From: Lepidurus packardi
Taxonomy: Eukaryota; Arthropoda; Branchiopoda; Notostraca; Triopsidae
Direction: 5' to 3'
Assembly: GCA_023053545.1 (NCBI GenBank)
Contig: JAKZAN010000002.1
Coordinates: 1,410,375 to 1,474,374, forward strand
DNA: 64,000 bases
Shown here: piece by piece, positions 27,901-52,200 of the stretch
Layout of the letters: every line of letters begins with the position of its first letter
How positions within the stretch are numbered: position 1 is the first letter of the stretch
Translations under genes and position numbers: made by a program
Notes under the pieces: model-generated
Databases searched by the model: none
Told to the model about the DNA's origin: nothing
The model's input: the letters and a program-made list of their open reading frames with translations, nothing else

Positions 27901-30900
27901 AGGCGTCAACTAGAACGCTGGGCTTTGTTCTGCTTCGCAAGCGAAATTATCTCCCAATCAAAGTTTTCATTCCCTTTTCTATTACAAGAACCCGGAAGGT
28001 TCGAATCCGAGCTTTCGGATTAGCGCCCCCTCTCACCCCTCCTTCCTCTAATGCTCTTAGATGTTCCCGTGTCTGTCTTCATTAATACTAAGCTCCTCCC
28101 TAAAACCTCAGACTCATTAAACAAGTGCTAAGCCCCTTCCTTGACTAACAACGGCAGTCTACAGTACAACCACCCCTTTCCTTACCCTCCACCCTCCCCC
28201 CAAAACTTTTTTTTAAAAAAAGACGAAAAGTCCCTTTGGGAACGACCTACAAACGATCCTCACTTCTCACGCGAGTAGCAATTGCTGAGTAATCTTCTAA
28301 CCAACTTCTAACCCACCCCCCTTTTTGGTAGCCCGAGGCAAGGCATGGGTAACGCTCAAAGAGTACCCTCCCAACCCCTCTGGGTACTTTCCTATTGCTA
28401 TTTCTCTTTTCCTGGTTTTCTTCTCCTTACAAACCTCTCGCCTTCAGGTTTGGCTTTCGTTTCAGTTGTAACCATTTTTCTTTTTATCACCCTTTTCGCT
28501 GCTGAGCTTTTCCAAGAGAGCTAGAGAGTAAGGGAGTGAGAGAGCGAACGTGGAGTTATTGGTAGAGCCGGAAATGAGTCCATTGGGGGGCATAAGGGGT
28601 AAGAACGCACGCGACTTTTCGCCGGAAGTCCTTCTTTCTTCTTCTCGAGCGCCAAAAACTCAAACCGAACATTTCTCTCTAGCTCTTTTATACTTTCTTG
28701 GATACCAATTTTTTCGTGAGTTTCGAAAATTCCGGGAAATACGAAATGAAACCTTCAGAATCCTCCTAAAGAAGCTAAGGCTCCTTCCCCATTTTAGCCT
28801 AAGGGAAGAAAAAGAAGGGGGGTGGGGTAAAGAATCGAGAAAAAAAATGAAGAAAAATGGAAGAAAGGTTGCCCTGGTCGCCCATGCATGTTGGAGCAAG
28901 ATTGAAGTCGCGTTTGACGTTAGGGTAGGGTGAAAAAAGGACCATGTTTGCCCCCCTCACCTCACCCCCACCCTTGAACCATTTTGGAGTCGACAGCGAC
29001 AAGTTTTCTCGCTTCATCGTCGTCAAGGCAACCTTCTCGAGCACAATTGAACAAGTCCAAGACAACCTCAACCACCCGACACAGAAATTCTGTCCCTTTT
29101 CCTTTTCCGGGGGGGGGGGGGGGGGTATATTAGTTCTGGCTATAAGATTAAGATTAAAAGGGGCCCAAACCCACGTATGTCGACTCTGATTGGAAAACTA
29201 ATCCCTTTCCCTGGCGTTGCTACACTTTTTCCGCTTTTCTTTAGTGGTGGTCCAACCGTTCCAAGTTCAAACATTTGATGTAACGGTTTTGCGCGGGAAC
29301 GTGGCTTTGTTCCAATGCCATCTAGTGAGTGCCAATGTAGAGCACATTTCGGTACAGTCATGGTACAGGGTCCATTCAAACAACGTGCAGATTCCATTGG
29401 CCACAGGGGACAAGTAAAAAGAGTGTTTTTTTCGATGCGATGGAGCTGAAACGGTTTTCTTTTCTTTAAAAGGTATATAATTACGACCAAAGGGGACTTA
29501 CATGTACTGAGTGCGCAGGCGCAGGATGCTCCGGGCGGCTACCAGTGCCAAGCCCTTCATAGCTTAACAGGGGAGACCCAGCGGAGCAACGTCGTTCAGC
29601 TCGCTGTACAAGGTAAACTTAATTAAGGAGTTTGCATGGAAACGCAAAGAAGGGAATGACGGTGAAGGGAGGAAGGAGAGAGAAACTATTTTGACTAAAT
29701 TTCGGACTGTTTTAACTTTGTCGTCCAACGCGAACGCTTAAAAAGAGCCAGGCGACCCTACCGCCCCACGACTGGTGGCGGCATCTACCGCTGTGGTGGC
29801 CATCGAAGGGGAGGAGCAGGACCTGACATGCGTGGCGCATGGCTTCCCCGCTCCCACTTATAGGTAGCTATCCGTTCTGTTTTCAAATGAAGCATGTTCC
29901 ATTCTTTTGGGTTATTTTTTTAAGCTGGTTGAAAGAGGTGGAGGGGAACTGGGTGGAGCTGCATACGTCACTGCGCATAGATCGTGGCGAAAGTGTCCTC
30001 CGCATTCTACGCGTTAGTGCAGAGGATGAAGGTAGCTACCGTTGCCAAGTCTGGAACGCGGCGGGGCAAATCAAAGCCGAGATACAGCTGACGGTGCATG
30101 GGGCACTTTCCGCTGCTCTGCACCCGCCCCAAGCCATGGCTGATACGGGAGAGAATGTTACGCTGAACTGCGTCACAGGCGGACGTCCTGCAGGCCAGAT
30201 CACCTGGTTCAAGGACGGAAGGATGATCCAAGCAGACCGAGATCGTCGCTGGCGATTCCCTAATCCAGGACGGTTGGCCATCCCGGCGGTCACCAAGAAA
30301 GACGCGGGGATGTACCAATGCATGGTTACTAACCGAGAAGGCGCGGCTCAAAGTAGCGCCGAGTTAACTATTGGCGGTAAGCTTTTATTTCTATTTTGTA
30401 TATAAAAGAAAATAATCCTTAGAAAGAGATTGTCCTAATAACGAACTTGTGATTGAAAAGCTTCCAGTCCGGAATGGGCCAGTACTTTCGGTGAGCGCAC
30501 GGTACACCCAGGTACGGCGGTCTCATTGCAGTGTTCCGCTCGCGGCGACCCTCCGCCTGACGTCACTTGGACCTTCAACGACGAAACCCTCGGAGGTATG
30601 AGCACGAGCCAGCTCCTTTCTCTGACGAGCCTGAGTACAGGTGGAGCCGTCAGTAGTTTCTTGAACCTTACTAGCGTTCGCGTCCTCGACGGCGGGGATT
30701 ACACTTGCATGGCGACAAATAGACTGGGTACTGTGTATCACAGAGCCAAGTTACACGTTTACGGTACAGTCAAACTCATCAGCCTTTTCAATCCTTTAAC
30801 CTTGCAACATTTTCTTCAAAAGGACCCCCAACCCCGCGGAATCCTAAGAACCTAACCTTGGCTTCAGGATCGGGAGCGTGGCTCAACTGTCCGGTCGCAG

Positions 30901-33900
30901 GGTACCCTATTATTTCTATTTCATGGTCCAGAGATGGTCACCAGCTGACTGGTGTACCAGGACCCTCTCCGTCCTACCAGGTCTTGCCTAACGGGACTTT
31001 ATGGCTCCAACAAGTCGATTCCGAGCTCGATAACGGACTCTACCGGTGCCAAGCGACCAATAACTACGGACAATCAGTCGAAGGACGCCTTTTTTTGACA
31101 ATCCTAAGTAAGAAACGAACCACCTCCTTAGAACCTTTCTTAAACCATGGAAAACTTCCTACAGAACCGCCTGAGATCGCGCCTTTTCAGTTTCCGGAGA
31201 AGCTACACGCTGGAATGCGTTTGCAGGTCACGTGTAGTATCATCTCCGGGGACTTTCCTTTGACAATCACTTGGAAGAAGGACGGACAGCCTCTCAACTT
31301 ACCCCTGAGCTCATCATTGGGTATTAACGAACAAAGCCACGCCTACGCTAGTAGTCTGCTCTTCACCCAAGTCCGTGCCGAGCATTCCGGCCAATACATC
31401 TGTGTAGCTACTAATCAAGCAGCGACCAGTACCTTTTCTGCTCTGCTGCAAGTCAAAGGTAAATACACGCACTAAGTCACGCAACGTGACACAAGGACGA
31501 CTCGACAGAACGAAAGTTCCGTAATCTTTCAAAGGACCAATAAGGATTCGAGTTCAGAAAGTCTGTGCCCATTGGTTAAGCGTCAACTAGATTAAAAGGT
31601 GCTTAAGTTGTACAAAATACGCCACAAAGACGACGGACCCTGACTTAAAGACTACGAATCCTAACTTAAGGACTATGGACCCTGACTTAAGAACGACGGA
31701 TTGTTGCGTTTTACCTGAAGATTGTTCATCCAAAAATTTCCATCCAATTAAATTTCCACCAAATTATTGTCGTCCTCCTGTCCTTCTGTCCGGGGTCCGT
31801 AGTCCTTTTGTTGAGTCATCCTTGTATTTACGTCCCTAAGTGACACCGGTGAACTATTCTTTCGATTTTCTCTGATAAAAAGTGGCACCAACGTGGGTAA
31901 TACCTCCCCATGACGCAGTAACCGCCTACCGAGCGACCGTCGTATGGGATTGCCACGTGACAGGCTATCCGGCTCCGACCGTCCAATGGTTCCGCGCAGG
32001 TAAGAGCCAACGCCATCTGTTTTCGTATAAAATTCACTCAATCTTCCTTCCCAATCGAAAATGTCTTAGGAGAAAACGGAGAATTGCTGGAACTCTCTCA
32101 ACCCAGAGCCAATGTATTGACTAACGGTAGTTTGGTGCTCCACAGCGTGGGTAAGGAAGACGAGGGAAGGTACCAATGCTCTGCCCAGAACGGTATTGGC
32201 CACGCCCTTACAAAAGTGATCCAGCTCCAAGTCAACGGTAAAGTATTGACTTTCTTCATTGGCTTGCAAAGTTAGCAAATGTGAACTTCGCGTTCGTACC
32301 TTGATAGTACCGCCGCTGATGGAGACCCGGAAGGTGAACTATACGGCTTCTATTGGGCAATTAGCGTTGCTAGTATGCGAAGCTAGGGGTGATGCCCCTT
32401 TGCGCTTGCAGTGGCGGTTCCAAGAAGAAGTTATCACGACTCAATCGCGTTTATCGATCAAAGAACAAGCCACACCCTTCGGATTCCGCTCGGAACTCCA
32501 CGTCAGTCCAGTATCCCGACAAGATACCGGCATGTACCGTTGCACGGCCATCAACCCTCATGGTCACGCGCATATGACAATCCACCTCTTGGTTTTAGGT
32601 AGCAAATCCTTCAAATTTTACCAAAAGGTGACTGAAACTAAGAAAAATTTCACAGAACCGCCTGAATCCCCGCAACAATTGACGGCTACGAGGGTCCTGA
32701 GTCGTAATATAGGCGTAGCCTGGCATCCACCTTACGATGGCAACAGTCACGTGACGCATTACTTGCTCCAATGGCAGTTAGAAGGCACTGTCTCATGGAA
32801 TAACGTTAGTCTCGGCGGCTCGGACAGTCATACCACGCTTCCTAGCTTACTTCCCGCCCAAACATACATCTTGCGTCTCCTAGCGGTCAACAATGTAGGT
32901 GCTAGTGCGCCCTCTGCCGTCTTAACTGTCACTACCCTGCCTGAAGGTACTTTTTCTCATAAAACAACTTCTTAAAATACTTATAACTCAACATGTAGCG
33001 CCTACGACGCCTCCTACTGACATTAGTACCGATTCGGGCACAAATAGCGTGACAATAAGTTGGAAAGTAACTGTCTAATCCTTCGTTGAAACTGTCTAAA
33101 GAGTATCTAACCTAGATTCCTTCCCATGGACCTAAGAAAGGACCTATTTTAGGGTACCTCATCCGCTACAAATTATCGCAAGCTGCCACCTGGTGGCACA
33201 AAACGGTAGCTTCTAATGCATCTCAAACCGTACTCCATAACCTAGAGTCTGGGACGCAATACGAGCTATTACTACACGCGTTTAATGTGGTGGGGCTGAG
33301 CCCATCATCGAATCCGATCCTCGCAACGACCTTAGAAGGAGGTGACCCTGAACTTGACCTTTAAATTTTGTTGCTTGCGTAGCCTTCTCTGAAGGGAAAG
33401 GACAGTTAATTGGTAACCCCTTTAGGCTGGGTACCCTTTTCGTAGTCGTCGCACATGCGCCTACCAACGTTCATTGTAGCTCGACTTCGCCTCAGAGTTT
33501 GCTGATCCAGTGGACCACGCCTACGTGGCCCCGTCCTTTTGCTCCGGTGCTTCTAGGATACAAAGTGTACTACCGACGCCTGGGGTCTTTCACAGGTACC
33601 TATCCCCGTCACCAAAATAAAAGCTACCGACGTTTCACATAAGGCCTCGCGGGCTCTCGTAGCGTTGGTTAGGCCTGTCAGAATAGCAGAAAAGAGCTAA
33701 TAACAGAAAAAACGCAATAATGAATGATGAAATGTAAACCGAGCCAGCATGTTGCTCTTTAAACGGGACTTGTTCGGTTTCTCCGGCTTGCTGTTAGGTT
33801 GCCGGTAGCTTTTCTTTGGTTAATGGATGGAATAGGACAATACCTCTCTTTTATGAATCAAAAGTGCGTTCAACTAGAGATTTTACTACCAGGAATCGAA

Positions 33901-39515: not shown

Positions 39516-39541
39516 TATATAAACCCACGCAGTTCGTCAGT
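39516..39541 (+). promoter_or_regulatory. TATA box and initiator of SOD-like gene 1
   Basis: TATATAAA at 39516-39523 is followed by TCAGT at 39537-39541, a match to the arthropod initiator. The same pair with the same spacing occurs at 45122-45147 before SOD-like gene 2. A non-coding first exon probably runs to 39704 (AAATCAG, then gtagaaa), spliced to an acceptor at 40384 just before the coding start. TATA-to-initiator spacing of about 23 bp is slightly short. Confidence 0.6.
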
Positions 39542-40438: not shown

Positions 40439-41741
40439 ATGAACCAAATGTTGTGCGTCTTGATGGGCGTCATGACGACATTCACGCTTGGCGGCGGAGC
40501 AATCCGTGGATCCGGTATTGGCCCGCAGGTTTATATCCGCTCTTCGCCATTAGCATCAAGGATGAGAAGCGACTTCATCGAGGTTTTCGTCACGCCTTAC
40601 ACTTACGTCAGTACTTTTCTACTTTTTTTTACAAATTTATTTTCCTCTAATTTTTAGTTTAAAGTAAATTGCATACTTATTTTAAAATGTCTAATTTCGG
40701 GCTTCTGGGATTGCAATTCAGCAGGTTGAGAAAGAAAGAAGAGCTAGTGTACGGTTTTTGGATGAAAAGGGAGGAGTTATGGGGGTACTTTATTTTCTAC
40801 AACGAGTACCACCTGTTGGCCCAGTTCACATTACTGGTAACATCACAGGATTAAAACCGGGAATGCACGGAATCCATGTACACGCCAACGGAGACTGCAC
40901 TCAAGCCGGAGGACACTTTAATCCCTTCCAGGTACAATTTATTTAATAAATATATTGTTCCATTGAAATTACCGGAATCATTTACGTATCCATTTATCGA
41001 AGTGGCAAATCGATATTTTTAATCAGAAGGCGATTATTTCAAACCTCTCAAATGCCTTATTAGAGAAAATATCGATGTTAAAACCGATTCTTGATTCCCA
41101 ATTCTATCCGCGCTAGCTAATATCGATATGTAACCCAATTTCGCTCTCAAGCTCACAATTGCTCTAACAAAGTTCTCGATTTTAACAATTATTCTTACCC
41201 TTCAATCAATTCTACTACTTTGCTCCATTCGTATCACTCTTTCCATTAATAATTAAAGAATAACGATTTCCTAATCTCTTAGAAATCACCCGATAGCAAC
41301 AAATATCCCTCAAATTCCAATATCGATTGTTCCAACTCTTGATCAGAACCGATTTCAACTAAAATTCTTCTACTGCAATCAATTCTAATGACTGATCAAT
41401 AAAACCAAAATTCAGCTAATCGTTCGGAAGCTTAATAATACCTTCAAACTGCCCTTATCGATTGTTTTACCTACTGATTCAATGAATTTCAATAGCAAAT
41501 CCACGGATTGCCAGATGGTCCAGTCCGTCACGTGGGTGACATTGGCAACATTTTGGCCTCCGCGGACGGCGTAGCGGTCGTCGAATTGGTGGACACTTCC
41601 TTGTCACTAATAGGCAGACGCAACATAATCGGTCGCAGCGTAATCATCGATGCTGTGGAAGACCTTGGCCTTCCGGAAGAAAACCCTCCCATCTATCCAC
41701 CCCGTGTGACTTGCGGGACTATTGGCGTCATCGAAACATAA
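40439..41741 (+). CDS. Secreted Cu/Zn-superoxide-dismutase-like protein 1 (probable pseudo-enzyme)
   Basis: Three coding exons (40439-40606, 40722-40931, 41496-41741), all phase 0, give 207 residues. Residues 1-20 look like a signal peptide ([20 protein letters not shown]). The SOD fold covers about 65-207. GIHVH supplies two copper His, HFNP the bridging His, IHG and RHVGDIGN the remaining zinc ligands His, His and Asp. Cysteines equivalent to Cys57 and Cys146 (DCTQAG, TCGTIG) and the active-site Arg (PPRVTC) are kept. The fourth copper ligand, His120 in human SOD1 (VVHE), is Asp here (IIDAVEDLG), and the loop before Cys57 is four residues shorter. Normal dismutase activity is therefore doubtful. 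Possible roles such as metal binding or extracellular scavenging are speculation. AATAAA follows at 41787. Confidence 0.9.
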
Positions 41742-41786
41742 TAACAAGCATTATGAACAAATAACTCTTCGGCATTATTACACAAC

Positions 41787-41792
41787 AATAAA
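41787..41792 (+). terminator. Polyadenylation signal of SOD-like gene 1
   Basis: AATAAA lies 46 bases after the stop codon. In paralog 2 the aligned position reads AATGAA, and the nearest AATAAA there is about 165 bases further on, near 48614. Confidence 0.65.
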
Positions 41793-41955
41793 AAAAAACC
41801 GTCCAAGTGACGCAAAAATCTATTTCAAATTTGTGTTTTTCGTCTTTCTCATTTTTTTCCCTACATGGGGAATCGAACAAATGGGAACTTAATTTGTTTT
41901 TTCTTTACCTTTTTAAAACGGAACCAACTAGACAACAATGACGGTCATTTTTTTT

Positions 41956-44890
41956 TCTTTCTTAAGATTCCTAAACTGCTTATAACTCTACATGTAGCGC
42001 CTCCGACGCCTCCGACTCACATTAATACCGATTCGGGAACAAACGGGGTGACCCATAGTGTAAAGGTATACAGCAGGGGAACATCCCTGTGTAAAAGTCT
42101 GTTACCAAGAAATAGATGGAAAAGGAGGAGCCAAATAGTATGACCAGGGAACCAACTGCTGATTGGCCGTTACGACACAGATCGGTATCATTTATATAGA
42201 CAGAAACTTGTCAGACAGATACATGCAGTGCGAATACTAATAGTATAGGAAAGTCAATTCCTAGGGTATTGCTATGAAATCGATACATTCACATTGCTAT
42301 CAATTTACGTTTGAACCTCATTTTTATATTTGCCGGCATAAGCAAGGCGTTGGTCAACAAGTCGGACCAATTCTGTCCTCGCAGGGAATTAGCCCGCAGC
42401 TTCAAAAAGTAGTAACAAAAGGCCCATTAGGAAGGGGCTCCATGTTCCTTCTCTCTCTATATATATCTTTACTCAAAGTCCGCTACAGCCTGTCGCAAGC
42501 TATCACCTAGTGGCACAAAACTCTAGCTTCTTGTGCATTTCAATCCGTACCACAGTATAGAGGTTTCACAGTATGCTAACAGGGCTATCTTCCAATGTTA
42601 AGGTTTTCTGACGACCTTCTCGGTCCCCCGAGTAATATTCAGGTAAAAGGCCAGAAAATGAAAGGGTACATTCGCAAACCTCCCAGTGCAGTTCAAAAAA
42701 GGTCACGACGGTTTACAAAGCGCGTAATTTAAATCTATTGCTTTAAACTATGTGAGCTTAAAATAAAAGATGAATTAACTAGGTCAAAGCACAACACGTA
42801 TACACATTATAGACTATTTCGCATTACCCAGGTTGCACCACCGAGGAGGCAGTCTATTTTGCAACCCATGCATAGGTGTTTTATAATATACAGGTTTAAC
42901 CCCATATACTATAAAATACCCATGTATATTAATGTCTATATGTGTTGTTATGACTATTTATGTCTATATACGAGTTATCCATTACATTGGTACTTTACAA
43001 CTATTCCTAAATGTTACTAACTTTTGCAAGTTTAGTATTTTTCTTAACACATTTAACTACGGCTCTTTCTGCTACAGCTACATTTTCTTCTTTAAGTGTA
43101 TAGTAAATCCTAACTCGAACGAACAAATTTAAAAAATAATCAACTGGAAATCAACCGTTTTTTCCAAAAACACTTTGCGCGCGTTGCCGGTAGGACCCTA
43201 CGTCAGCCCAAAACTCCCTTGAGTGCCCGAGAGAAAGGTCACCAGTCCCCCGTTTTGTGAATGTTTTGTTCTCTTCTCGAACCCTTTTTTCTAGTAGATT
43301 AGGAATGCCTACATGGGGGTACATGGCACAGTCTGGGAATCCATCCCCCATATAAGCCTTCGTACCCTCACATCCTCTTGGGACCGAGAAAATCGTGTTA
43401 ATCCCTTTACATTGGAAGATACCCCCAGTTACCATACTGTGAAACCTTTATACTGTGATCCGTACTCCATACGTGCTACTACAACACATGTTTAATGTGA
43501 TGGGACAGGGTCCAGGTTCGATTATGATCCTCGCAACGTGGCTCCGTTTTTAAGTGGCGTCGTTATCCACAGTCATCGGCGTAGATACCCTAAGACGCGA
43601 CAAACCCTCCAATATACCCTTAAATGGCCACAGACAAAATACCCACACACATTTCTACTCCCCAACGCCGTGTATGAAGAGTGACGGCACTCCCGACTTC
43701 GATACTCTGTACAAATCTGACTCAGGTAATTTTTCGCTACTATATTTAATCTGCCACTTCTACATCAAATTGTATGTAATTTCTTAGAATGTATCTGTTT
43801 TTTCTTTGATTTTTAATTTGCATTTTGTTATGCTATTTATATGTATTTGTTTATGCGCTTTGTTTACGTGCTTGTGAACGTTCTTATTACTTTATGGTGT
43901 ACGGAAATGCCCGGAATAGTGAGTGTAAAAAGAAGAAAATTAATTGAATTTAATGCGTAAAAGAAGAAAATTAATTTTCTTTGTTTACGTCTATGTTTGT
44001 GCTATTCTCTTATTTTTAAATTTAAAGAACGAAAACATAATTATTCCAACCAAACAGATACTTCCGAGATATCTCCCTAAACGATCTTAAGGCTACGGTA
44101 CACCTTAAGGCTAAGGCTCTTATGGGCGAATTGCACAGGAAACGGCGTAGGTGATTCCACCAAAACCATGGGAAATTTTTTAAATTAGTTTCAGACAGTA
44201 ATGTAAATGATAATGATAACTAGCGCACATTGACTAGAGTTTTCAAAAATAATTCTTCTTAAATTTGCAAAACAGAAATGAATTTTCCCCTTTTTTTATT
44301 AAAACTAATTTAAAAAATCGGGCTTCAATGTGCTGTAGATTATTTTTCAACTGAATTTTTAAAGCCAACAGACTTTAAATCTGTTTTTTTTTTTGTTTTT
44401 TAAATCTGGGTTTTGAGTAATCGCATACGTAGTTTCGCGAAATTTCCTACCTACATTGCACTGCCGCATTGAACCATCTCGACCTTCAGCTTGGTGCAAT
44501 GTAGCCTTAAGCCTAGCTCAGTGCCCAGCCAAGAAGAAAACGTTTACCACCGATACGGACCTGAACAGCGTCCGCGGGACCACCTTCAGCGCCACCTATC
44601 ACCAGCTTCGACCAACTATTCCTTGATCCAAAAATCTTCGCAAGAGGCCCAGGGTCCTTTCATGGTTGTATAAACGTCCTTTCATGGTAAAACCCGCCTC
44701 GAATTGGATCCAGGTAAACATCAATCTCCTCTTAATTCTCCTTAGATTCTTAAAAAATACTTAAAAGAAAAACCTTCTCTCACATTGTTAGATGTGGTAT
44801 GCGCCGCAGGGTCCAGTACAGAATCATCAGCCTCTCCAGCTCGCCTTTAACAACATCTCCATCGCCAACAACATCAGTATCAATAAACTC
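41956..44890 (+). pseudogene. Duplicated, shattered 3' half of Dscam
   Basis: 41970-42055 copies the start of the FN2 exon with its upstream intron (CATGTAGCGCCTCCGACGCC). About 42475-42560 copies the middle and 43440-43548 the end of the second FN2 exon. 43549-43725 copies the juxtamembrane part of the membrane exon, 44050-44091 plus 44507-44715 the EISPYATF exon, and 44790-44850 the last exon. Exons for FN3 to FN6 are missing. Frames are broken by stops, indels and a MITE at 44092-44506. Unrelated sequence fills 42060-42470 and 42560-43430. It is immediately downstream of SOD-like gene 1, as expected for a tandem duplication. No full product is possible. Confidence 0.9.
44092..44506. mobile_element. 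piggyBac-type MITE with TTAA target duplication
   Basis: The 415-bp element is bounded by GGCTACGGTACACC and GGTGCAATGTAGCC and flanked by exact TTAA copies at 44088-44091 and 44507-44510. It interrupts the duplicated copy of the Dscam EISPYATF exon. The equivalent site in the intact exon near 38474 (CTACCTTCAGCCTAGCCC) has no insertion. The terminal repeat resembles that of family C (GGCTCCCGTATACC). Confidence 0.85.
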
Positions 44891-45121
44891 CAAATTATTC
44901 GCATCTTCCTTCTTACTCTTGCCTCCCTTTTCTTTTTCTTCGAGTTCTTGGAGTTCGAGTGCCTTGATCTCATGCCAAATACATGGGGTGTACAAAGCTA
45001 ATCTCATTTTTTACCTTTTTGTTTTTTTGTTTTCATTTAAGAAGGGCGTCAATTTGCTTGTTCGAGATCTTTTCCAAGGTTAAAAAAGTGTAAGTGTTAT
45101 TTGAATGCCAACCGACACAGG

Positions 45122-45147
45122 TATATAAACTCACCCATTTGGTCAGT
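45122..45147 (+). promoter_or_regulatory. TATA box and initiator of SOD-like gene 2
   Basis: TATATAAA at 45122-45129 and TCAGT at 45143-45147 repeat the arrangement of gene 1. The inferred non-coding first exon ends at 45248 (TTTAACAG, then gtaaaaa), and the acceptor is at 46027 (TTCCAAG). Conservation of the promoter suggests the second copy is still transcribed. Confidence 0.6.
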
Positions 45148-46082
45148 TCTACCTGTACTGAACATACATACCTTCTCTCTCTTCTTCCTCAATGCAGACA
45201 TTTTTTGTCGTCTTAAGTACAAGTTAGTGACTCCAATAAGTTTAACAGGTAAAAATCCTTCAAAATCCTTGAAATTTGCTAAACTCTAACTAAATTAACG
45301 AAATTTTCTTATAAAATGAGAAAAAATTATCTTCTCTAGTCAAAACCGCAAAAAAACATCTATTCATTTCCATTAAACTAACTAAACCTCGCTTGGAATC
45401 AAATGTAATGTTACGATTGCAAACGAAGTTTGGTAAGTTTTATCCAAATTAGTGCAACGTATCATTGACCAGAAAATTAAGATTATCCGACATCCATTGA
45501 CAATTATTTGCATACTTAGATATTTTAAATGATATTTTGTATTCCTTATAAAATAACAATTTTCTTCATTTCTTTCTTAACCGAGTTTTCGAAGCAAATA
45601 GAAACCCTTCAAATTTCATAACCTCTAAGTAAATAAACGAAATTTCCTTAGAAAGAGAGAAAAAATTAACATCTCTATAAAAATCGAAAAATATTCTATC
45701 CATTTTCATTAAACTGACTAAATCTCGTTTGGAATCAAATGGAATGTTATGATCGCAAGCGCAGTTTCAGTTAAATTTATGGAAATTAGAAGCAATTATC
45801 ATTGACAATGAAACAGAGGTTATCTGAAATCCATCGATATGTATTTACCTATTTCTGGAATTTCTTAAGCGAATAACTCGTTGCAAAAATAACGTTTTTT
45901 CTTGCTGTCTTTGTGAACCGAGTATTTTGATTTTATAAAATTTGTTTTCTTTGCTTAGAATGAAAATTTAGTAGATGTGGACAAAGGAAATTCACGAGAC
46001 GGAAATTTTTAATATTTTATTTCCAAGGACTTCAAAGGTCTAATTTTTTTTGTTTGGGGAAAAGTTGTGAAAAATTACAGCC

Positions 46083-48398
46083 ATGAACCAAATGTGGTGC
46101 ATCTTGATGTGCATGGCTTTTGGGGTTGCAATTCAGCAGGTTTCCAGCGTTCACCCGCAGGTTCATTTTCTCTATTCGCCATTACCATTATGGATGAGAA
46201 GCGACGTTATCGAGGTTCCCGTCACGCCTGAGTCACGCCACGGCACTCATGTCAGTCTTCTTGAACTTATTTTTAATAAATCTATTTTCATAGAATTTTC
46301 CAATTAAAATAAATTTCTTACTTTTTTAAAAAAAAAAATCTTATTTGGGGTTGTGGGATTGCAATTCAGGAGTCGGATTGCGATGAGGTTCAGAAAAAAA
46401 GGGCCATTGTACGGCTTTTGGATGAAAAGGGAGGAGTAATGGGTGCACTTCATTTTCGACAACAAAGGCCACCTAATGGCCCAGTTCACATTACGGGCAA
46501 CATCACAGGATTAGAGCCGGGCAAAAAAGGAATCCATGTACACACCAACGGAGATTGTATTGAAGCCGGACTACACTTCCAGGTATATTTTTTATATACT
46601 TATATTATTCTGTTGAAATTAACAATATCATGTAAGTCTCCATTTGCATATTATGAAGCGATTTGAGATTTCAAGTATGCTTACTTGGAATCTCAAGATT
46701 TGAGATTTCAAGTATGCTTACTTGAAATCTCAGGTCTTGGAATCTCCAAGTTCAACTTTAATCAAACAAACGATTCTTAGCGTGCTGTAACGTCAAAAAA
46801 TAAGGCTCCCATATACCTTAGTTTGGTAAAGGTGGTTAGGTGGTTATGGGGAATTTCGCTTGGGGAATTTCGAAGCAACTTTTTGATAAAACCAGTACAT
46901 TTAATGAAAAATTCTTTAAAACAGTAATATGGAGCTTGCTAACAGGTAGTACACAATCAATGTTATTGTTTTTTCCAATTAGCAATACATTAGCAATACA
47001 CATTTGCAATTTACAATATGAGAATACGTTACCTAAAAATCTGTCCTTTGCTTGTGCACTAGCTACTAATAAAAGAAAACATTTGTATAAGTTTGCTTTC
47101 AAATCGAATAAGCCTTTTTCGACAAATCTTGTTCCGAATGTTTGATGACTTAGTTTGGGAGATTGTGCTGCTACAACAAACTGGGGTGACAAACTGTACT
47201 TTTCATAAGCAAAACAAGCGTAGAAAATTTGCCAGCAATTAGCTATATGTTTCTTTTCTTACTTTCTTACGCAAGGCTTTCAGAAAACAGTAACAAACAT
47301 CAGTGCCATCTGTGATTCTTAACCAAGAATAAGCTAAGGTATACGGGAGCCTTAAGTCTTCTGACGTTTTCACAACGACGCAAAGCTGAATAATGAAATA
47401 CCACCGAGTGAATGTTAATCGCTAACGGGAATCTGTCCAATTACTCCGGCTTGGTATTACATCGCTCGATGCTTTTTATCCTGGGAGTCACGAAAACGAT
47501 GTGTTCGAAGTTTTTTTTTGCTATTAATTGATTAGAAACCCAACTACAGATATGATCTTCTAAACAGCTCCATTTCAAACTATCGATTTGTTCTAAGTTA
47601 CTTAGTCTAATACCTTAACCGTAAAAAAGGTACACAAACGCAACGTACCTCGTCAAATGTCGGAAATCAGCATATTGATATTTTTAATCAAAAGGCGATT
47701 ATTTCGAATCTAAAATGCCTTGTTAGAGACGTACCGATGCTCAAACTGATTCCTTTGACTCCCAATTTGATTCGCGCCAGCTAATACCGATACGTAACCC
47801 AATTTCGCTCTCGAGATCAAAACGCTTTACCAAGTCTCGATTTCACCTAGTAGTCTTCCCCTGCAATCAATTCAACTGCCTTGCTCCATTATTATCACCC
47901 TTTTTTATTAATAATTAAAGAGTAACGATTAGCTAATCGCTTAGACGTCACCCGATATCAACGATACCCTTGGACTCTAGATACCGATTGTTCTAGCTGT
48001 TGATCAATATCGATACAAACTAAACTTCCTCTCTATAATCAATTCTAATTTGATTATTGAGAGTAAAGTTCAGCTAATCGTTTTGAAGCTAAATTATTCC
48101 CTCAAACTTCAAATATATTTTTTTCCACTACTGATTCAATGCATTTCAATAGCAACGCCACGGATTGCCAGATGATGAACACCGCCACTGGGGTGACCTT
48201 GGCAACATTTTGGTCTCCGCGGATGGCGTGGCGGTCGTCGATATTACGGACGACATTCTTTCCCTAAACGGCGCACGCAACATGATCGGTCGCAGCCTAA
48301 TCATCGATGCCGTTGAAGACCTTGGCCTTCCGGAAGGAAGCCCTGTCATCTTGCCAACCCAAGCGGCTTGCGGGATTATTGGCTTCATCAAAGTTTAA
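46083..48398 (+). CDS. Secreted Cu/Zn-superoxide-dismutase-like protein 2 (diverged paralog)
   Basis: Three phase-0 coding exons (46083-46250, 46370-46582, 48153-48398) give 208 residues, with the same architecture as the gene at 40.4 kb. A hydrophobic start (MNQMWCILMCMAFGVAI) suggests secretion. GIHVH, HGLPDDEHRHWGDLGN, the two disulphide Cys and [15 protein letters not shown] are present. The His120-equivalent is again Asp. Three residues of the HFNP loop are deleted (LHFQ), the active-site Arg is Gln (PTQAAC), and the usual HG before HVH has become KG. It has thus moved further from an enzyme, yet the frame is intact over all exons. Intron 2 is enlarged by about 1 kb of inserted repeats, including a family C MITE. 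It could be a young pseudogene, but nothing in the coding sequence breaks it. Confidence 0.88.
46665..46752. repeat. Short palindromic tandem repeat in SOD-like gene 2 intron
   Basis: GATTTGAGATTTCAAGTATG followed by CTTACTTG(G/A)AATCTCA occurs twice in tandem. Each unit is itself an inverted repeat (GAGATTTCAAGTA, TACTTGAAATCTC). It is absent from the paralogous intron. Confidence 0.8.
46804..47351 (+). mobile_element. Complete TTAA-type MITE (family C), 548 bp
   Basis: It runs from GGCTCCCATATACCTTAG to CTAAGGTATACGGGAGCC. The right flank is TTAA and the left ATAA. It lies in intron 2 of SOD-like gene 2 and is missing from the same intron of gene 1, so it inserted after the duplication. 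It has no coding potential of note. Confidence 0.88.
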
Positions 48399-49234: not shown

Positions 49235-52200
49235 TCATGTTTTCGACAATTCTTTCATGTTATTGCCAAAACTGGCGAGGGCTGGAAAGCATTTGGGGTT
49301 GCATAAAAAGTTTTCCGAAGTAAAAGGAATCTTTAATTTGCTGAGCTCTCTTAGTAATTTTGCTCTTTCATGATTAAGTCTCGTACAATGAAATAGCAGA
49401 TGTGGAACATCTTGTTTCATCTGAGATCGGCAAATGCAGGTATCGTCATCGATCTTTTTAATTCGCTTTAAATATGAGCGGCAGGGGAAATGGTTTGTGC
49501 GCAATTGGATTATCGTGGATAATATGCTTTTGGGCAGTTTTGAATCAACGATAGATTTTTTGTCTGGACTGGCTTTTAGATCTTTGGTAGCGTAATGGAA
49601 CTTGTTCCAGTCTTGACACCAAGTATTAAGTAAAAACTTGGAGAGCCAAATGCGCGCTACTTTTAATGAATCAGGAGGAGATGGCCAAGCGCTAGAGAGG
49701 AGGTTTCTTGCTCTTTCAGAATAGGAGGTGTAGCTTATATGCTTTGCGGGTTCATGTTTCGTAGGCCACACGTTCCAGATTTTTGAGGCATAATGGTTGA
49801 GAAGAGATTTCTTCAAGGCAAGATCCAGTGGTGGGAGTCCCAGGTCGACTTCAATTGCTGCAGAGGGTGTTGTTTTGAGGGCACCGGATATAGTTAATAA
49901 GCCTTTACGGTAAAGTTGTTGAAGTGGTTTCAGTTTAGCTTTCGATATATTGCACCATGCTGGGTATCCATATAAAAATTTACTAACGATTGTGGCTTGA
50001 AATAAGGTTTTTAATTGCTTGGATGATATTGATTTGCACCATTTAGCGATTTTTATCATACGTAATTGGGAGCTGTTGCATTGGTTAGCAATGTGTGAAA
50101 CGTGAGTAGACCAATTTAGTCGGTGATCAAGGTAGAGGCCCAGATATCTTGATGAAGTTTTGGGTACGATGGTGGTTTGACCCCAAGTCAGTGTTGCTTC
50201 TTCGGCTTGTCTTTATGGAAGTATACGAGTTCGGTTTTTTCTTTAGCAAATCGGACATTTAGTCTAATGCCCCATTTTTCTAATGCTGAAATGTTGTTAG
50301 CTAGTAGTTTGGTGTTTTGATTACTCGATTTGCTGGAGGTGAATAATATTAGGTCATCAGCAAAGGCCTGGATCTCTATCCTCTTGCGTTTGATTGTTGT
50401 GAAACAGACATTAATGTAAATTAAGAAGGGGAGAGGAGAAAGTGGGGACCCTTGGGGAACGCCGTTTGTAATTTGGTAGAGCAAACTATGCGTTTCTCTA
50501 TAGATGGTATAGGCGGTGCGGTTTTCCAAGAAGCTAGTGATCCAATTGAGTAGTACTTTGGGGGTTTTTATTTTTCGGAGCTCATTAATCAATTTTTGGT
50601 GATGAAAATTATCAAAAGCTCCACTTATATCTAGGAATAATGCTGTTAGTACTTTCCCTTTATCAAAGGCTTTAAGGCCAGCGTTGGATAGTCGGATTAG
50701 GGAGTCTGTGGTAGACCGATTTCGTCGAAATCCCCATTGATTTCCTGACAGGATTTTATTGTCATCGAGGAATTTCGTTAGTTTGCGAGTCATGGCTTTT
50801 TCCAATATCTTGCCCAGTACTGGGAGAAGAGAGATTGGGCGGAAACTCCGCATAGATTCGTAACTTGGTTTGTGTGGTTTGGGTAGAATTAGCACTTTAG
50901 CCATCTTCCAGTCTTTTGGGTAATAACTCAGACGAATCGAGGCGTTGTATATGTTAATCATAGGTTCTTTTAGTATGTTCCATAGTTCTTTTATTATTAT
51001 AGGCTGAATGTCGTCTTTTCCAGCTGCTTTCATGGGTTGTAGCTCAGTGATGATTGATGAGAGGTCTTCTGCTGTGATTTCGTCGTCTTTATCGAAGTTG
51101 TAATTTATTCGACGTATTTTAGATTTGGAGGGGGGGTTTGAATCTCTTGTGCCTCCTAAGAGTTTTTCTGCCGCATAGTTTAGTTTGGTGATTTCATCCG
51201 AAAAGTTGTTCCCGTCTTCTTGTAAAACGTGTTGGAGTAAGTTTTTTTCCTTGTTCTTTAGGTTATTATTAAAAGCCCATAATGTTTTGTTGTGTGGTTC
51301 TTTTATTTTGTTTAGCCAATACTCTTCTCTATATTTTCTTGTTTTGGCGCGATATAGGTTTCTTGCAACTTTCCAATTCGTTTCATCTTGTAATCCAGTG
51401 TTTTTGAACTTTTTAAGTGCTTTAGCTGCTGCTTTTCTAAGGGAGTTAAGGTCTGAATTCCACCAGGGGTTTGAGTTTTTCAGGACTCTTTTAGGTACAT
51501 GCTTCGATATTATTTCTTGGATAGTCGATGTCAAAGAGCCAACGGCAAGGTCAATAGCATCATTGTTTCCAAGTTTATCCAGGACAAGCGTGTGTCAAGA
51601 AGCTCTTTTGTTTTTGAACGGATTTTATCCCAGTTGACTTTTGTGTAAGACCACATGGTGGAGGTAAATTTAGCTTTGGCATTTGGGAGATCAATTATTA
51701 CAGCGGAGTGATCGGATTCATTATAATAGTCTTCGTCGTCACGAATTTTTAAGTAAACATGAGGTAGAAGCGTCAAGGAAGCATAAGTTAAGTCTAGTGT
51801 CGATTGGTGTCCTCGTTTGTTGTGAAATGTGTGGCGGTTCCAGGTGTTTAGCAGTTCCATGCCGTGTTTTGTCGTAAAGTCGTACAGTTGTATTCCAGGT
51901 AAGTCTGATTTTTTAGCTTCCCATGACCAATGATGAGCGTTAAAGTCCCCGGTTATGATGATATTTGATGTAGTTTTATAGAATTTTTCCCACAAGTTTT
52001 GAAGCAGAGTTTCTAAATTTTCATTGGATCTTCTGTAAAGTGCGATAACAAGTATAGGTGACGAGTTGAGAGATTGTATTTTTATTACCACGGATAATTG
52101 GGATATTTCTAGTATCTGGTATGAAGCTGATTGAGTAGTGAGTAGCGCTATTCCTTGGTATTCTAGCCGAGATCGAGAGATGGAGTATCTCGAAAGTTGA

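Follow-up and report, generated by a model that had tools for sequence, protein, structure and literature searches.

The window analysed here, a 64,000-nucleotide stretch of the Lepidurus packardi genome (C2:1410375-1474374 of a 108.6 Mb assembly in 344 contigs), contains two genes for proteins resembling Cu/Zn superoxide dismutase (SOD) in which an aspartate takes the place of a catalytic copper ligand, the residue corresponding to His120 of human SOD1. Gene 1 (40439-41741) encodes 207 amino acids and gene 2 (46083-48398) encodes 208, or 207 when an alternative acceptor at 46373 is used. Each gene has three coding exons, and all four introns are bordered by GT and AG. These models are predictions made from the DNA, assembled by hand and then checked, and their reading frames are open throughout, in agreement with the initial annotation of the locus, which had described both frames as intact.

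When the genome was searched at both the protein and the DNA level, genes 1 and 2 turned out to be members of a family with at least five copies, located on a single chromosome (C2). Three of the five are intact (gene 1, gene 2 and L016) and two are broken (L017 and L021; Table 1), copy counts from genome searches being lower bounds. The codon at the His120 site is GAT (Asp) in all five, which supports the earlier view that the change is older than the duplication. The family has been seen so far in this one genome only, and no publication describing it was found among titles and abstract openings, a coverage outside which most subscription journals lie.

The three intact models match the Pfam family Sod_Cu (PF00080; cut-off 28.9 bits) with 113.7 bits for gene 1, 103.6 for gene 2 and 113.1 for L016, the best stretch covering positions 2-133, 2-116 and 3-133, respectively, of the 133 in the profile. 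Scanning these three models against Pfam yielded no domain beyond Sod_Cu, and neither an ATX1-like N-terminal domain nor a C-terminal domain of the CCS type was detected. All three begin with a hydrophobic, signal-like segment, as judged by hydropathy only. Additionally, the promoter stretch around the TATATAA motif of gene 1 is 86% identical to that of gene 2 over 65 aligned bases. The first coding exon is single and uninterrupted in L016 and L017; in genes 1 and 2 the N-terminus is extended and there is one more intron. Inspection by eye suggests that exon 1 and intron 1 (40439-40721; 46083-46369) resemble an insertion splitting a signal-peptide exon that is still whole in L016, and a remnant of the split exon (GGATTGCAATTCAG) seems, also by eye, to supply the acceptor of intron 1.

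Table 1. Predicted features of the two window genes and the other family copies (positions refer to the window unless a contig is given)
Feature	Position	Strand	Remarks
TATATAA upstream of gene 1	39516..39522	+	consensus match only
Gene 1 coding exon 1	40439..40606	+	hydrophobic, signal-peptide-like start and N-terminal extension absent from L016; hydropathy basis only
Gene 1 coding exon 2	40722..40931	+	first half of SOD domain: GIHVH (H46, H48), Cys57, HFNP (H63)
Gene 1 coding exon 3	41496..41741	+	H71, H80, D83, Asp at position 120 (GAT 41649-41651), Arg143, Cys146, stop
TATATAA upstream of gene 2	45122..45128	+	consensus match only
Gene 2 coding exon 1	46083..46250	+	hydrophobic, signal-peptide-like start and extension; hydropathy basis only
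Gene 2 coding exon 2	46370..46582	+	H46, H48, Cys57, H63; lacks NPF of gene 1
Gene 2 coding exon 3	48153..48398	+	H71, H80, D83, Asp at position 120 (GAT 48306-48308), Gln for Arg143, Cys146, stop
L017	starts ~C2:1478.7 kb		~4 kb past the window; broken: TAA in exon 2, GC donor
L021	C2:1251.2 kb		broken: exon 3 only found, acceptor AG lost, Pro for H80
L016	starts C2:3271366		intact, 171 amino acids

The copper site and the surrounding loops

In genes 1 and 2 the Asp stands in strand register after GRS-x-I-I, and MAFFT placed it in the His120 column, as the initial annotation had claimed. In some alignments phmmer opened a one-residue gap at this place instead, the aligners differing because the loop after the Asp is one residue shorter than that of SOD1. 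The sequence does not separate replacement of the His by Asp from deletion of the His with Asp as the next residue, and neither leaves a His. Moreover, the codon lies inside exon 3, and no choice of exons restoring a His was seen, although the alternatives were not exhaustively tried.

Equivalents of H46, H48, C57, H63, H71, H80, D83 and C146 are kept in both proteins, confirming the reported retention of GIHVH, the zinc ligands and the disulphide cysteines. The zinc ligands (H63, H71, H80 and D83) and the C57-C146 pair are also present in L016 and L017. The set of four His that ligates copper in an active Cu/Zn SOD (H46, H48, H63 and H120) is incomplete in 5/5 copies. All eight metal and disulphide positions are invariant among the three intact copies, compared with 89 of the 141 columns taken together (hypergeometric P 0.022). 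Loss of the active-site Arg and of three residues of the HFNP loop had been attributed to gene 2, which is right for the pair. Among gene 1, gene 2, L016 and L017, Gln replaces Arg143 in gene 2 alone, whereas the three residues NPF are missing from gene 2, L016 and L017 alike, HFNP being kept by gene 1 only. Besides, four residues are deleted from loop IV between H48 and C57, and the span from position 120 to 143 is 18 residues instead of the usual 23, five fewer, therefore most of the electrostatic loop sequence has been replaced.

It could be argued that copper is still bound, by the three His together with the Asp, that dismutase activity is weak or absent, and that the protein binds or buffers copper outside the cell. 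Ligation of Cu(II) by a carboxylate is possible in principle, and H46 and H48 are invariant though they would be needless as ligands in a zinc-only protein. However, domain II of human CCS, with IIDEGEDDLG (PDB sequence) where the window genes have IIDAVEDLG, combines the same three His with Asp and, according to portions of PMC13017621, is unable to bind copper at this site, changing the Asp to His being what gives a copper-binding SOD. Retained copper binding is thus an improbable account of the family.

Sequence evolution of the family

Between genes 1 and 2 the pairwise ratio of nonsynonymous to synonymous substitution (omega) was 1.07, with a synonymous divergence (dS) of 0.23, and omega was 1.085 under other codon frequencies. 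A single omega over four copies (gene 1, gene 2, L016 and L017) was 0.88 (p 0.53 against 1), and the gene 2 branch had an omega of 1.58 compared with 0.69 elsewhere (p 0.084). Divergence between genes 1 and 2 amounted to 0.23 in exon 2, 0.25 in exon 3 and 0.31 in the exon 1 row, and to 0.26 in intron 2 and 0.28 in the 3' flank. The alignment of L016 failed over the exon of the 5' untranslated region, exons 1-2 and intron 1 (40-42% identity), and these rows were unused; L021, represented by exon 3 only, aligned usefully from intron 2 onward only and was left out of the codon models as well as the trees.

Small indels that would break the frame numbered 16 in 764 aligned bp of intron 2 and 3' flank and zero in the 447 bp of exons 2 and 3, where 9.4 were expected (P 8.6e-5). 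This comparison was limited to exons 2 and 3 because the exon 1 row of gene 2, which includes 13 bases before the ATG, holds an unplaced two-base indel; the frame is open in both genes. In neutral simulations, both frames stayed free of stops in 0.2-4% of cases across nine settings of start sequence and distance, the value being 0.7% when starting from gene 1 at distance 0.25.

Codon models applied to the four copies separated two classes of sites. Under M3, 61% of sites had an omega of 0.16 and 39% an omega of 2.9 (likelihood ratio, LR, 42.1 over M0), and under M2a 32% of sites had an omega of 3.15 (LR 14.9 over M1a, p 6e-4). The corresponding LRs (M3/M0 and M2a/M1a) were 37.1 and 13.5 when gap flanks were removed, 46.1 and 21.6 with the three intact copies only (40.5 and 18.6 with gap flanks removed), 32.0 and 17.2 for exon 3 alone, and 11.5 and 1.7 for exon 2 alone. 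The four-copy LRs were reached in 0/100 neutral simulations (maximum 5.1) and in 0/100 simulations under M1a (maximum 6.5). The family has a constrained core, metal ligands included, and a fast class of 32-39% of sites at an omega of about 3, and the conflict between a mean omega near 1 and the retained frames is resolved because the site models distinguish these two classes. In what we take to be the SOD1 numbering, fast sites are located at the rim of the zinc loop, in the strand 5-6/loop VI region, in the short electrostatic loop and at the C-terminus, and also beside H46. Recombination was considered as a source of the site classes and set aside: of 16 informative sites, 11 group genes 1 and 2 apart from L016 and L017, four and one favour the other splits, and no clear block is apparent, small conversions being possible.

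These data also bear on the possibility that the genes are relaxed, decaying duplicates, in which drift followed the loss of copper and genes 1, 2 and L016 are the copies not yet broken. Such decay would fit the mean omega near 1, the similar divergence of exons and intron, and the two of five copies that are broken (L017 by a TAA and a GC donor, L021 reduced to exon 3 without an AG acceptor); in addition, TATATAA is absent from the stretches of L016 and L017 examined (370 and 410 bases). It is nonetheless unlikely in view of the missing frame-breaking indels, the low joint chance of stop-free frames, a site-class LR of 42.1 compared with 5.1 at most under neutrality, and the eight invariant metal and disulphide residues. 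Plain neutrality, as might be read from an omega near 1, is disfavoured by frame retention and the site classes. The initial proposal of selection for a non-dismutase role is therefore upheld in part: frame retention and site classes speak for selection, the dN/dS of 1.07 that had been called for would by itself suggest neutrality, and a new function is plausible by inference.

Origin and other SOD-like loci

A six-frame search of the assembly returned 26 Sod_Cu matches, and 12 eukaryote-like Sod_Cu loci outside the window were modelled with a custom spliced aligner. The animal SODs from outside this genome were PDB sequences only. L014, L018, L020 and E. coli SodC were rows of a 15-row tree and were dropped from the 11-row trees and their tests; no tree included L015 or L019. 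The family copies in the tree formed one clade (100/100), and its placement among SOD1, CCS and extracellular SODs (EcSODs) was not settled by the tree. The best tree placed the family beside cytosolic SOD with negligible support (32/0), and the approximately unbiased (AU) test rejected neither a grouping with CCS (p 0.436) nor one with EcSOD (p 0.423).

Gene structure was more telling. A phase-0 intron after HFNPxx interrupts the same codon in the window genes, in the EcSOD genes L012 and L013, and in L020. The CCS-like gene L011, placed with human CCS at a support of 99/98, has introns at other places than the window genes, and its residue at the place of His120 is Thr, not Asp. The intron common to L012 and L013 and absent from L011 therefore points to an origin from a secreted SOD. 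Both EcSODs keep His120, Arg143 and full loops, and they seem to carry hydrophobic leaders, as seen by eye in translations whose first exons were not modelled. We infer that the family was derived from a secreted SOD and that its Asp arose convergently with that of human CCS. A CCS origin, suggested by the IID motif, could not be rejected by the tree but is disfavoured by the intron positions and the signal-like start.

A secreted equivalent of CCS domain II, pairing with an extracellular SOD and helping it to fold or regulating it, would explain an Asp identical to that of human CCS domain II and would be in line with the hydrophobic leaders apparent in L012 and L013 and with the unrejected CCS clade. 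However, the residues removed by the loop IV deletion belong to the dimer side of SOD, therefore the usual heterodimer is unlikely; moreover, the gene structure differs from that of L011 and Sod_Cu is the only Pfam domain. We regard such a partner protein as very unlikely.

Other SOD-like sequences were found in the same assembly. The SOD domains of L014 (C4:11908 kb) and L015 (C1:706-708 kb) precede same-strand Vitellogenin_N matches by 1-3 kb, and a fusion of the two is putative. L015 (C1:704000-709500) comprises two SOD-like domains, at C1:706141 and 707484, that have lost H46 and H48 (VIIYD, VTIYE) but retain the HFNP..H..H..D residues of the zinc type; the open frame that separates the two domains contains many MYGPQ-like repeats. 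This pattern is unlike that of D. pulex VTG1 and VTG2, which, as stated in sections of PMC2678069, have lost all Zn residues and one Cu histidine. L019 (C5:99500-102700) is a very divergent SOD-like frame (39.2 bits) whose zinc loop has an unusual sequence. The strongest Sod_Cu match in the assembly, L009, is an uninterrupted sodC-like frame among dense neighbouring frames on C42, a contig of 395 kb that looks bacterial, and the assembly may include a bacterial associate. Within the window, three frames with immunoglobulin (Ig) domains, one of them also with fn3, occupy positions 29827-32975 on the + strand; a DSCAM fn3 match there was below the cut-off (27.1 bits, cut-off 39), and the region is perhaps a Dscam-like gene, judging from these domains. 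Just downstream of gene 2, at 50191-51594 on the - strand, lies a reverse transcriptase frame (RVT_1, 132 bits), and scanning the two frames that adjoin it gave no Pfam match.

Proposed role and comparison with known systems

Starting from the observed ligand change, retained zinc site, trimmed loops, kept frames and two site classes, we consider it probable that the window genes encode a secreted, zinc-only, non-dismutase SOD fold that derives from an extracellular Cu/Zn SOD and is used as a fast-evolving binding protein. In the proposed scheme, an extracellular Cu/Zn SOD gene would be the ancestor of a probably secreted SOD-fold family, in which Asp120 would keep copper from being held in a stable, redox-active state, in line with what is reported of human CCS domain II, and dismutase activity would be lost. 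The product would be a zinc-stabilised, probably monomeric beta-barrel binding something extracellular (a microbial surface, a host protein or a metal) in the manner of dominin and cavortin, and diversifying selection would act on the surface loops, the metal-stabilised core being held constant.

Several points weigh against this proposal. The mean omega is close to 1 and does not differ significantly from it, the exons of genes 1 and 2 have diverged about as much as intron 2, and 2/5 copies are broken. The class with omega above 1 is significant for exon 3 alone and not for exon 2 alone. The codon models were custom code run on four copies, one of them a pseudogene, and in the simulations a single optimiser start was used. 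Nor does the protein tree reject a grouping of the family with CCS. Furthermore, the ordinary EcSOD pair L012/L013 has an omega of 0.56 that is not significantly below 1 (LR 2.22), therefore a raised omega in duplicates is not peculiar to the window family.

A bolder version of the proposed binding role, which we advance only tentatively, holds that, in this species, a His-to-Asp change identical to the one in human CCS, but independent of it, inactivated the copper site, and that the protein then became a rapidly diversifying recognition molecule or antagonist, zinc-only and with a frozen metal core. At least about one third of its sites would be under positive selection, and copies would be gained and lost as for an arms-race molecule. 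If true, one single-residue switch of the copper site was reached twice, by a cytosolic chaperone as well as by a secreted SOD, and the latter kept the zinc-stabilised barrel as a scaffold for fast surface evolution. In relation to the initial annotation, the present analysis adds at least three further copies, the four-residue deletion in loop IV, the electrostatic loop shortened by five residues, and the links to CCS domain II and to dominin/cavortin.

Among known systems, domain II of human CCS (PDB 1DO5/6FN8), as described in portions of PMC13017621, is alike in its SOD fold, zinc site, disulphide and three copper His with Asp in IID. CCS differs from the window proteins in its cytosolic location, its ATX1-like and C-terminal domains and its complete electrostatic loop; the window genes show signal-like N-termini, a shortened loop, the loop IV deletion and introns placed otherwise than in L011. 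The SOD-fold variants outside the cell that lack an extended loop VII, namely the Cu-only SODs and CSRP, offer a second comparison (PMC13017621, in part); they have lost zinc and, in active ones, kept copper, while the window genes keep the zinc ligands and have lost a copper ligand.

Arthropod relatives are found in the extracellular Cu/Zn SODs (EC-SODs) of water fleas, for which sections of PMC9926121 give copy numbers of 9, 3, 4 and 5 in four cladoceran species. Their counterparts here, L012 and L013, share the intron position of the window genes and, unlike the family, retain His120, Arg143 and full loops. If our interpretation is true, non-dismutases may be among the EC-SOD genes counted in water fleas, a number interpreted in the same study as antioxidant capacity. 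SOD-vitellogenin fusions have also been described in water fleas and Artemia (parts of PMC9926121 and PMC2678069), so that the arrangement at L014 and L015 by itself makes a branchiopod genome very probable. The fusions of Daphnia resemble the window genes in having SOD-like domains with partly lost metal ligands (PMC2678069) and differ in their yolk protein part, the window genes being stand-alone.

A further precedent may be provided by molluscs. Oyster dominin and cavortin are, according to portions of PMC6530089 and PMC13017621, secreted proteins with a SOD fold and no SOD activity, and for these and pernin the same sources mention proposals of metal and pathogen binding. The likeness is one of description, the window genes having a signal-like start and a lost ligand; dominin and cavortin differ in being molluscan and abundant in plasma. 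Overall, they set a precedent for an inactive, secreted SOD fold kept for other roles, and on this analogy the products of the window genes are most probably secreted binding proteins that carry zinc only.

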